Origin: Burkholderia plantarii | GTDB lineage: Bacteria > Pseudomonadota > Gammaproteobacteria > Burkholderiales > Burkholderiaceae | Direction of reading: 5' to 3' | DNA: 64,000 nucleotides | NCBI RefSeq assembly: GCF_001411805.1 | Contig: NZ_CP007213.1 | Span: 2,728,001-2,792,000, forward strand | Shown: one piece after another, positions 57,320 through 59,637 of the stretch | Layout of the letters: every line of letters begins with the position of its first letter | How positions within the stretch are numbered: the stretch's first letter is position 1 | Notes under the pieces: generated by a model | Seen by the model: the letters and a program-made list of their open reading frames with translations, nothing else | Told to the model about the DNA's origin: nothing | The model's database searches: none | Program-made: the position numbers and the translations under genes

Positions 57320-57637
57320 TTAAGTTAATGCAGGCACTTCAGCAGCATTTCTGAGTTGCCTGTAGTAGTTTGCCTCAGCTTCGGCAGGCGGGATATAGCC
57401 GAGCGGTTCCATCAGCCGATGATGGTTGTACCAGGCGACCCATTCCAGCGTTGCCAGTTCGACGGATTCCCTCGTTTTCCAAGGGGCGCGCCGATGAATC
57501 AGTTCCGTCTTGTAGAGACCGTTGATCGTTTCAGCCAGCGCGTTATCGTAGCTGTCGCCACGGCTGCCGACGGACGGCTCGATACCCGCCTCGGCCAAAC
57601 GTTCGCTGTACCGAATGCTGACGTATTGAGCCCCCCT
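57320..57637 (-). pseudogene. 3' part of IS3 orfB, split by IS110
   Basis: The C-terminal part of the IS3 integrase: RGAQYVSIRYSERLAEAGIEPSVGSRGDSYDNALAETINGLYKTELIHR and on to the stop at 57320. It contains the last catalytic glutamate (NALAETINGLYK). It joins exactly to the 5' part at 59030 if the IS110 element is removed, giving HHSD-RGAQY. Confidence 0.88.
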
Positions 57638-57653
57638 GACGCCCTTCTAAAGG

Positions 57654-58739
57654 TCAAGGGGTAATTTGAGTCTGTGCAATCTTGAGGTGGCATTGCTGGA
57701 TTACGTAATAGACCTCCCTCGCGATGTAGCGCTTCAGGCAGCGGATCGCTTCGAGCTTCGAGTGCCCCTCGCTCACGCGTTTGGCCACATAGGCTTTTGT
57801 GCGCGCGTCGGTTCTCAAGCGACCGATGGCAATGATGTGCAAGGCGCTGTTGGCTGCGCGATCCCCTCCGCGATTCAGTCGATGTCGCGTCACCTTACCG
57901 GAAGAGGCCGGGACCGGACTCACGCCACAAAGGGCGGCGAAGCTAGCCTCTGACTGAAGTCGGTCGCTGTTGTCGCCGGCGGTCAGTAACAGTTGCGACG
58001 CCGACTCGTAGCCAATCGAATTCCGCGAGACAAGGTCGGGGGCAAGTTCGTCCACGAGCATCGCGATCATGACGTCGAGGTCAGCAATCTCGTCGTGCAA
58101 CTCCAGATATCGACGTCCCAGCGACTTCAGTGCAATTCGGCAGGCAGAGGTCAGGTTCCGATAGTCGGACAGATCCGGACGCCACGCCGCCAATGTTCGG
58201 ACGAGCTGCATCCGTGTCATCGCGCGTAGTGATTCACGTAGCTCATCCGGCGCACTGATGATGGTACTGTGGATCAGCTGCAAAGCAACGCGACGCGCCG
58301 AAATGGCCGTCTTCCGGCACACTTTCAGAACGCGCAGCGATTCGATCATGCCATCGCGCGTCTTGGGTGTGACCGTACGCACGCCGGCGAAGGCAGCGTG
58401 AGCGGCGTTGTAGGCATCCAGCGTATCGTCCTTGCCACGTTTGCGCCGGTCGCTTCTATCCGGCGCGGTGACCTCCAGCACAGTTACATGGGCTTGTTGG
58501 AGGTAGCGCAATAAGCCGGCGCCATAGCTTCCGGTGCACTCGACGCCCACCCGGACGAGTTCACCGAATGAGCGCATCCAAAGCAACATCTGCTTGTAGC
58601 CGTGCCGCGTGGTTGGGAACGATTCGCTGCCGAGAATGCGATCATGTTCATCAACGACAGCCGCAAAATGCAGATCCTTGTGCGTATCAACGCCGCCTAC
58701 GATGCTACGACGGCTAGCAGTAGCCAGTTCTTCTGTCAT
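57654..58739 (-). CDS. IS110-family transposase (DEDD/RuvC-like plus serine domain)
   Basis: A 361-residue IS110-type recombinase, apparently intact. The DEDD residues are visible: Asp in GGVDTHKDLHF, Glu in GVECTGSYGAGL, and two Asp in KRGKDDTLDAYNAA. The C-terminal Tnp_20 domain has SFAALCGVSPVPASSGKVTRHRLNRGGDRAANSALH with the catalytic serine in PASSGK. The start is ATG 58739. Because both this protein and the element ends are intact it may still be active. It works with a bridge RNA from the non-coding end, by analogy with IS621. Confidence 0.93.
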   Translation of the reverse strand: MTEELATASRRSIVGGVDTHKDLHFAAVVDEHDRILGSESFPTTRHGYKQMLLWMRSFGELVRVGVECTGSYGAGLLRYLQQAHVTVLEVTAPDRSDRRKRGKDDTLDAYNAAHAAFAGVRTVTPKTRDGMIESLRVLKVCRKTAISARRVALQLIHSTIISAPDELRESLRAMTRMQLVRTLAAWRPDLSDYRNLTSACRIALKSLGRRYLELHDEIADLDVMIAMLVDELAPDLVSRNSIGYESASQLLLTAGDNSDRLQSEASFAALCGVSPVPASSGKVTRHRLNRGGDRAANSALHIIAIGRLRTDARTKAYVAKRVSEGHSKLEAIRCLKRYIAREVYYVIQQCHLKIAQTQITP

Positions 58740-59027
58740 ACGGCCTCGCTCCGGTTACCGATGGGTATGGGCGATCTCACCAATAATCGAGTACCTGGAC
58801 AAGACAGTAAAGTGACAGGGCGTCAGGCCCTTCTTGAGTCACACGTATCGACGAGATGAAATCTCGCCGTTCGGCAGTTCCAGAGGACCGACGGGTCAGG
58901 GGAAAGACATTGAGTCGATCGGAATGTGGGTCAGGTCGCCTGGAACGCTCTACGGCACCAGACCCTCCCGAAAGCCGCCTGTTTCAAAATGGTGATTGTC
59001 CGGAAATATCTGGTACGCGTATTCTTA
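58740..59027 (-). ncRNA. predicted bridge RNA region of the IS110 element
   Basis: The 288-bp 5' non-coding end of the IS110 element. Read in the transposase direction it contains, in order, TCCGAT (58918-58923), identical to the target bases just left of the core; CCCCT (58898-58902), complementary to the core plus right target AGGGG; CTGACGCCCT (58817-58826), complementary to the last ten bases of the element's 3' end including the core; and TTACT (58806-58810), complementary to core plus the element's 5' terminus AGTAA. A target loop preceding a donor loop is the order known for IS110 bridge RNAs. No fold was computed. Confidence 0.6.
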
Positions 59028-59029
59028 CT

Positions 59030-59637
59030 ATCGGAGTGGTGTATCAAGGTCCCATCGTCGCCCGGTTGGCGCGCGTACAGCGCCTGTTCGAGCGCATCCA
59101 GAACGAAGTCCGTGCTCATCGACGAACTGACGCGCCAACCGACGATGCGACGGGCAAACACGTCGATCACGAACGCCACGTACAGCCAACCCTGCCATGT
59201 CGAGACATAGGTGAAGTCAGACACCCAAAGCTGATTTGGGCGCTCAGCCTTGAACTGCCGGTTGACCCGGTCCAGCGGGCGCGGGGCGCTCGTATCGGGA
59301 TTCGTCGTGCGAACTCGCTTGCCGCGAACTGTGCCTCGCAAGCCCTGCAGCTTCATCAGCCGCCCGACCGTGCAGCGTGCGACCACAATGCCCTCTCGGT
59401 TCATCTGCTTCCAGACCTTCGGCACACCGTAGACCTGCATGTTGGCCCGCCAGACACGCTTGATCTCGGGTTGCAGGACCTCATCGCGTTTGGCACGAGC
59501 GCAGCGTTTGGACGGATCACGAAGCTGCGCAGCATGGCGTCGGTAGCCCGACGGGGCGATCCGCAATACCTTGCAGATCGGCTCGACCCCGAAGGTGTCG
59601 CGATGCTGATCAACGAAGGCCTTCAGGACTTGAATCG
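59030..59637 (-). pseudogene. 5' part of IS3 orfB, split by IS110
   Basis: The N-terminal part of the IS3 integrase: VLKAFVDQHRDTFGVEPICKVLRIAPSGYRRHAAQ, the HTH_21 segment VYGVPKVWKQMNREGIVVARCTVGRLMKLQGLRG, and the first catalytic aspartates in LWVSDFTYVSTWQGWLYVAFVIDVFAR and LIHHSD. After HHSD the frame enters the IS110 element. Overlap with orfA is in the -1 frame, as for programmed frameshifting in IS3 elements. Confidence 0.88.

Follow-up and report, generated by a model that had tools for sequence, protein, structure and literature searches.

An ISEc21-type IS110 element in an IS3 transposase gene of Burkholderia plantarii, and relatives whose bridge RNAs appear to carry two left target guides

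Among the insertion sequences (IS) of the IS110 family, ISEc21 is described in the consulted sections of Siddiquee et al. 2024 (PMC11187229) as targeting, without duplication, the codons around the second D of the DDE motif in IS3-family transposases, and the same sections report ISMch6 as a natural redirection of ISEc21. For IS621, the consulted parts of PMC11208160 and PMC11208158 describe pairing of the left guides with the bottom strand of the DNA and of the right guides with its top strand. Here we analyze an element of this kind in a 64,000-nucleotide stretch of the Burkholderia plantarii genome (contig NZ_CP007213.1, positions 2,728,001 to 2,792,000), hereafter the window, in whose coordinates all positions are given. 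The window element is a further member of the already known ISEc21 type, ordinary and with a single left guide. Taken together with its relatives, it very likely reflects guide-RNA-directed insertion of the ISEc21 type at an IS3 motif, accompanied across the family by a second left guide that shares the right half of the RNA. The insertion comprises the following features.

57638..59029, minus strand: IS110-family element of the ISEc21 type, AGTAAG...GGGCGTC, 1,392 bp (ends from copy comparison and the restored frame of the joined flanks)
57654..58739, minus strand: DEDD transposase/recombinase, 361 aa (PF01548, PF02371)
58740..59029, minus strand: left end with the non-coding bridge/seek RNA region (alignment, folds)
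59025..59029, minus strand: left-end tip, or right donor, AGTAA (sequence, copy comparison)
57638..57648, minus strand: right end, or left donor, AGAAGGGCGTC (sequence, relatives)
59030..59038, minus strand: left target CACTCCGAT, the His-Ser-Asp codons of IS3 orfB (sequence, copy comparison)
57628..57637, minus strand: right target AGGGGGGCTC (sequence, copy comparison)
57286..59999, minus strand: host IS3-family element with split orfB (inverted repeats, Pfam, Rfam ALIL)

Integrase-core halves recognized by Pfam lie on either side of the element, between the IS3 terminal inverted repeats (57286-57311 and 59974-59999), confirming the original prediction that an IS110 element, here with PF01548 (E 2.7e-20) and PF02371 (E 1.4e-13) in its recombinase gene, has split an IS3 orfB. 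The empty site could also be rebuilt as proposed, the flanks joining to CACTCCGAT followed directly by AGGGGGGCTC, and copy comparison with the frame of these joined flanks placed the boundaries at 57638-59029 instead of the 57636..59038 given originally. Across copies (L numbers are our labels for copies and loci), leaving the element out restores an Asp-x-Gly frame in 51 of the 54 with both flanks, the misses being L015, L041 and L053; Asp-x-Gly-x-Gln is read in 42 of the 54, most commonly as His-Ser-Asp-Gln-Gly-Ser-Gln (14). The joined flanks mostly read His-Ser-Asp, whose Asp is the second catalytic Asp of IS3 transposases. This frame is a check on the boundaries that is independent of the short patterns by which the ends were located (one starting with AG on the left, GAAGGGC[G/A]TC and near forms on the right), and which make the constancy of the ends partly a matter of construction. 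The first two bases after the right end of 58 copies are CA (34), CG (13), AG (6) or AA (5). Since AG is found there in 6 of 58 copies and the frame closes without it, the AG formerly read as a duplicated core is a coincidence: after the right end of the window element it is part of an Arg codon, and at the left junction it belongs to the element. A target at the second catalytic Asp codon of IS3 orfB without duplication places the element in the ISEc21 type. Its layout is that of the IS110 group, with a non-coding left end (290 nt) longer than the right end (16 nt) and the RNA features in the left end, not in the right end as in the IS1111 group. The element matches one place in its own genome, and its transposase shares about 75% protein identity with enterobacterial relatives.

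A scan of genome contigs gave 47 related loci, and more came from plasmids, viral contigs and genome searches. The resulting table holds 70 distinct copies, 67 of them with nine left-flank bases, and 65 were used in the left-target tests. Those unused are L006 and L027 (left flank or left-end start not found), L061 (left tip deleted), L034, a two-guide copy whose contig begins within the site and whose six visible bases, TCGGAT, would add one TCN target, and L024, whose left flank resembles another element end and which was also omitted from the right-target test. Right ends were located in 59 of the 70 copies, and 58 entered the right-target test. The L058 start, the L103 5' guide and the L045 guide were corrected by hand and the L101 start was set by hand; L007-L009, with degenerate 5' modules, were counted as single-guide. 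The genome-scan loci without the pattern (L018, L032, L033, L038, L040, L043, L044, L046 and L048) have no row, and seven loci missed by the strict pattern were read by eye and held out of the tests. Matches to the DBL pattern occur in 3 of 399 genomes of the order of the window, 1 of 65 of the genus and 1 of 369 of the class, its own genome being included each time, and in 13 of 250, 3 of 394 and 1 of 199 genomes of the families of L017, L030 and L027, respectively. Viral contigs gave three loci, identical in two scans, and the phages scanned with the same pattern gave no match. In E. coli, 471 of 5,426 genomes contain a match over 80% or more of an enterobacterial copy; the copy table leaves out these matches and most of the more than 1,000 matching plasmid records. 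In L024, the left flank ends with AGAAGGGGTC and the right flank begins with AGTAA, like the ends of other copies, and the element has possibly inserted beside or into the junction of another copy.

The left end of the window element contains the following parts.

58957..59014, minus strand: 5' stem-loop ACCAGA...TCTGGT (fold), where the second left target guide of relatives sits, absent from the window copy (comparison)
58877..58946, minus strand: target-binding loop made of stem, left target guide, stem-loop, right target guide and stem (consensus fold)
58918..58926, minus strand: left target guide (LTG) CATTCCGAT, reading like the target top strand at 8 of 9 bases and covarying with the left target
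58895..58902, minus strand: right target guide (RTG) CCCCT plus GAC, covarying with the right target
58827..58834, minus strand: left donor guide (LDG) AGAAGGGC, reading like the element right end AGAAGGGC
58817..58826, minus strand: CTGACGCCCT, the earlier donor match, rejected
58803..58810, minus strand: right donor guide (RDG) TTACT plus GTC, changing with the left-end tip in three states

Four short matches had been predicted in this region and lie where they were placed. Three of them, TCCGAT, CCCCT and TTACT, behave as left target, right target and right donor guides, changing with the target or donor across copies, although their true lengths are greater: CATTCCGAT (8 of 9 to the target), CCCCT with GAC, and TTACT with GTC. 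CCCCT proper (58898-58902) stands against AGGGG of the right target and is followed by GAC, the complement of the donor end GTC, in a handshake-like manner; TTACT proper (58806-58810) stands against the left tip AGTAA, and the GTC behind it complements the target GAC (GAT in the window), again handshake-like. The left donor guide AGAAGGGC, directly 5' of CTGACGCCCT, is present in 50 of 52 distinct RNAs, which gives the 5' to 3' order CATTCCGAT, CCCCT, AGAAGGGC, TTACT. Mononucleotide shuffles of 288 nt are expected to contain TCCGAT 0.07, CCCCT 0.46, TTACT 0.23 and CTGACGCCCT 0.0 times; the three short true matches are thus weak alone, and their strength rests on the comparison of copies.

In this comparison, the left target of 34 single-guide copies agrees with the LTG of the same copy at 7.68 of 9 positions against 6.46 when permuted (p 5e-5) and 7.26 when permuted within taxa (p 1.5e-4), and in 32 of the 34 the middle codon shares its first two bases with the guide. 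On the right side, 58 copies show 4.16 of 5 agreeing positions between target and RTG, against 3.63 permuted and 3.71 within taxa (both p 5e-5). Changes in the left tip are accompanied by changes in the RDG, the combinations being AGTAA/TTACT (49 copies), AGTCA/TGACT (14) and AGCAA/TTGCT (2), with single exceptions AGTAA/TTGCT and AGTAT/TTACT, L061 being left out. At close range, the window copy and the related L002, L004 and L005 have guides and targets that differ in step. Related copies with other targets therefore carry correspondingly other guides, as the cross-copy comparison suggested with the prediction required, and the window copy offers a natural test of this model, its close relatives differing in guides and targets. 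Of the handshake bases, the left donor ATC of L006 fits its RNA GAT, ATC in L022 misfits GAC, and GTC with GAT in L008, L035 and L045 is a wobble; no claim is drawn from them. By their letters, 63 of 65 left targets fall in a TCN, AGY, ACN or GCN class, the others being L010 and L022. The GCN class, with His-Ala-Asp or Gln-Ala-Asp sites, includes L072, L079 and L110 (Microvirga) and L102, whose left guides are CACGCT or CACGCC.

A consensus fold of 44 RNAs (alignment A1, 44 of 59 distinct sequences) supports 9 of 13 pairs of the target-binding helix by compensatory changes, and 14 of 30 over the whole fold. LTG and RTG are placed in the loop of this helix with a small GAC-GTC hairpin between them, the LTG identical and the RTG complementary to the top strand and both covarying with the target. 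As the loop test proposed with the prediction required, the two target guides thus lie in a loop; CTGACGCCCT is part of a local hairpin. In the Rfam scan of the window the only matches were ALIL and tRNA, with no IS110 RNA family among them. An antisense RNA from the opposite strand was considered and dropped on reading, as TCCGAT and CCCCT would have the wrong polarity. The left-end tip (59025-59029) and the RDG (58806-58810) are complementary in one transcript and paired in its minimum-energy fold, so that the window RNA could mask its own donor guide.

Many relatives harbor a second left-guide-like segment in the 5' stem-loop, among them members from Halomonadaceae, Pseudomonas, Aromatoleum, Burkholderia sp. 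E7m39, Microvirga and Methylorubrum, and also in Rhodobacterales, Rhizobiaceae and Phyllobacteriaceae, and Acetobacteraceae. Standard and 5' guides typically read CACTCT and CACAGC, respectively, in the Halomonas type, and CACTCC and AACACC in the main alphaproteobacterial type. The left target is nearer to the 5' guide in 19 of the 31 two-guide copies whose left target could be used and to the standard guide in 11, with one tie. AGY targets are found in 9 of 15 TCN+AGY copies and ACN targets in 6 of 8 TCN+ACN copies, against none of the 22 TCN single-guide copies (p 4e-5 and 4.7e-5, respectively), 21 of which are at TCN and one unclear. When RNAs with a TCN standard guide are clustered at 95%, 13 of the 17 two-guide clusters contain an AGY or ACN target, as against none of the 18 single-guide ones (p 1.6e-6). 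Wherever the target of a two-guide copy departs from the class of the standard guide (19 copies), it falls in that of the 5' guide of the same copy, also in L120, L122 and L126, whose guides differ only in the first codon or the Asp codon. Within Halomonadaceae plus one Marinobacter (L058, single-guide), counted by hand, 5 of 9 two-guide copies are off-class (5 of 10 with the cut-off copy L034) against 0 of 7 single-guide copies (p 0.034). One identical 260-nt RNA occurs at both classes in L016 and L017, which have 3 differences over 1,397 bp and lie at CACTCAGAC and CATAGCGAC. The hold-out loci L114 and L115, on two plasmids of one strain, have no difference in the first 300 nt and one over the element, with guides AACACTGAT and AACAGCGAC and targets AACACCGAT and AACAGCGAT; they are the weaker pair, because their two targets differ by one base. 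Overall in the hold-out, L114 and L123 match the 5' guide, L115, L116, L117 and L119 the standard guide (the 5' guide being mutated in L117 and L119), and L124 allows no call.

The second guide appears to share the right half of the RNA, since an RTG-like pentamer between the 5' guide and the standard 5' strand of the target loop was found in none of 35 two-guide copies. We call this standard strand S1, the strand before the 5' guide S2, and the 3' strand of the target loop T. Over 25 distinct two-guide RNAs, mean pairing energies are -28.1 kcal/mol for S2:T and -26.6 for S1:T, against -24.0 and -21.2 with permuted T (p 2e-4 each). In alignment A2, made from sequence only with 29 of 29 RNAs, pairing reaches 92.8% in S2:T and 94.3% in S1:T. 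Double changes are seen in 8 of 17 S2:T pairs (42 cells vs 14.2 in shuffles) and in 5 of 13 S1:T pairs (31 cells vs 11.3); sliding the partner by one column lowers pairing to at most 54.4%. The numbers of doubly changed pairs and of pair types for S2:T are reached by 9 and 1 of 500 shuffles. The 5' module also fits T better in two-guide RNAs (mean z -2.5, n=27) than in single-guide RNAs (-0.9, n=32; p 6e-5). The target, the boundaries, the guide-target covariation, the two-class targeting and the covariation of S1 and S2 with T are in this way shown by comparison, at the level of sequence.

These observations may be assembled as follows. The left end of the window element would encode a bridge/seek RNA whose target-binding loop would recognize, in the DNA of IS3 orfB, the conserved His-Ser-Asp-x-Gly motif, with CATTCCGAT as a left guide that reads like the top strand and CCCCT as its complement on the right side. 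The donor part would read the joined element ends via AGAAGGGC and TTACT, and the DEDD recombinase would insert a circular form, without duplication, directly after GAT and ahead of the following codon. In many relatives, S2 beside the second guide could pair with T as S1 does, and one RNA could present either left guide with one common right guide, giving access to two target-motif classes. We consider it probable that S1 and S2 compete for T in a single bridge RNA that offers a choice of two left guides for its one right guide, switching the target class between TCN and AGY serine codons or between His-Ser-Asp and Asn-Thr-Asp motifs of IS3 transposases, and that this is an old trait, repeatedly lost, the window lineage being one loss. 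The alternation of two folds in one molecule, like every biochemical step, we infer. If true, a pair of left guides set against a single right guide would amount to a natural two-address design. It would account for the reach of one element across the codons or variants in which a conserved motif occurs, and would provide a directly testable RNA switch.

Several points weigh against this proposal. On the donor side, the pairs hardly vary and leave the donor loop fold without covariation support, the nearly invariant LDG allows no covariation test, and a 58-nt RNA sufficed for ISEc21 movement according to the consulted part of PMC11187229, the donor part being not obviously needed. On the target side, L010 and L022 are misfits at the middle codon among single-guide copies. 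As regards the pairing with T, two of the five measures for S1:T, the numbers of doubly changed pairs and of pair types, are matched in 119 and 393 of 500 shuffles, relatedness is not preserved in this control, and L015, L035, L057 and L104 show strong S2:T pairing without a recognized guide. S2 is probably a duplicate of S1, so that part of its fit to T could be ancestry; among the 99 cells with a difference between the two strands, pairing with T is seen for both in 55, for S1 alone in 24, for S2 alone in 18 and for neither in 2. Finally, folds forced to contain S2:T are worse by a median of 4.1 kcal/mol, S2:T being in the free-energy minimum of 10 of 29 RNAs, and most folds forced into one or the other state have part of their guide bases paired.

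The cost of these forced folds favors a different possibility, in which the 5' guide works without refolding, either because the left end is processed into two RNAs or because the 5' module pairs in trans with another RNA's right half. Processing of the ISEc21 RNA to a 74-nt form (PMC11187229, consulted sections) points the same way, and S2-T covariation cannot tell cis from trans; a second RNA would nevertheless still need the shared right half, given the missing RTG-like pentamers, with which trans pairing is compatible. We regard this as a possible but less probable explanation. The 5' module resembles a target-binding loop and has decayed in several lineages, as would a dead duplication, and off-class insertions could then come from mismatch tolerance or predate a change of guide. 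This is unlikely, as none of the 22 single-guide TCN copies is at AGY or ACN, all 19 off-class two-guide targets follow their own 5' guide, and identical RNAs are found at both target classes.

The original prediction had itself proposed a bridge-RNA-guided insertion into a reconstructable target, and this general reading stands without its donor half and its AG core. It took CTGACGCCCT as the strongest match and the donor guide, and a 10-base match is indeed improbable by chance in one sequence. This segment is however kept in 5 of 52 distinct RNAs, forms part of the hairpin AGGGC-CTGAC-GCCCT, and has the wrong polarity with respect to the published model, in which left guides read like the top strand. 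The polarity misfit noted at the time was hence reversed: the identical TCCGAT is correct and the complementary donor match is wrong. With the AG counts and the frame given above, a model with CTGACGCCCT as donor guide and AG as duplicated core is very improbable. Recognition of the IS3 motif by the recombinase alone, with incidental guide-like matches, would suit the high conservation of the motif, yet the close transposases of the window copy, L002, L004 and L005 are at motif letters that differ and follow the RNA, and ISEc21 requires its RNA (PMC11187229, consulted sections), so that we give this explanation hardly any credence.

On a tree of 52 transposases, from which 13 copies with short reading frames and repeated identical proteins were left out, the two-guide label needs six changes, and the midpoint root as drawn has two-guide members on either side. 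The distribution fits an old trait with repeated losses, and gains are also compatible with it. The window copy belongs to a well-supported single-guide group of Burkholderiaceae (7 rows, 99/95), and its lineage, which has no second left guide, has probably lost it.

The host IS3 element retains two further features.

59623-59949, minus strand: IS3 orfA
59552-59668, minus strand: IS3 frameshift pseudoknot (Rfam ALIL)

A second IS110-family transposase, without its first residues, lies at the end of the IS3 element (60002-60970, plus strand; PF01548 E 3e-25, PF02371 E 6.7e-23), and the locus is thus a nest of an IS110-type remnant, the IS3 element and the present IS110 element. Elsewhere in the same genome, two IS3 copies (L128 and L129), identical over 302 compared bases, have a site without the element that reads CATTCGGCGTCAGAGGG (locus positions about 1490-1506). 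They look like an excision or deletion scar of an earlier insertion, because GCGTC corresponds to the last bases of the element right end.

As far as the consulted sections describe it, ISEc21 is the closest known system: it shares with the window element the IS110 family, an RNA in the upstream non-coding region with the left match 5' of the right match, and a target at the second D of the DDE motif of IS3 transposases without target duplication. The two differ in that the window guides are TCC and AGGGG, whereas enterobacterial L010-type copies, probably ISEc21 or very near to it, have AGC. A second left guide was found neither in the window copy nor in the L010-type copies, and two-guide relatives do not appear in the consulted sections of the ISEc21 description (PMC11187229). 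Our literature searches, whose scope did not include preprints, supplements and ISfinder, found no report of two left guides in one bridge RNA, and we think that bridge RNAs of this design, in which either left guide would work with the single right guide, are a new variant. The IS621 bridge RNA, in the parts of its description consulted, has the same loop order (stem, LTG, stem-loop, RTG, stem), the same guide polarity and handshake-like bases beyond RTG and RDG; it differs by a single left target guide and a CT core, the present copies having no common core dinucleotide at their junctions. With the IS1111 group, likewise as described in the consulted sources, the element shares the DEDD recombinase family. 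That group has its RNA in the right end and long subterminal repeats; the present element carries the RNA in the left end and has a right end of 16 nt. ISMch6 (L061 and L080, Methylorubrum; the name of L061 comes from the PLSDB annotation) resembles these elements in its ends, target region and RNA layout, and differs in harboring two guides, AGC at the 5' position and TCT at the standard one. The L061 copy is without 7 bp of the left tip present in L080, and its left flank is unlike the usual target, both of which bear on the published redirection. That ISMch6 carries both guides suggests that its reported redirection from ISEc21 is worth re-examining.

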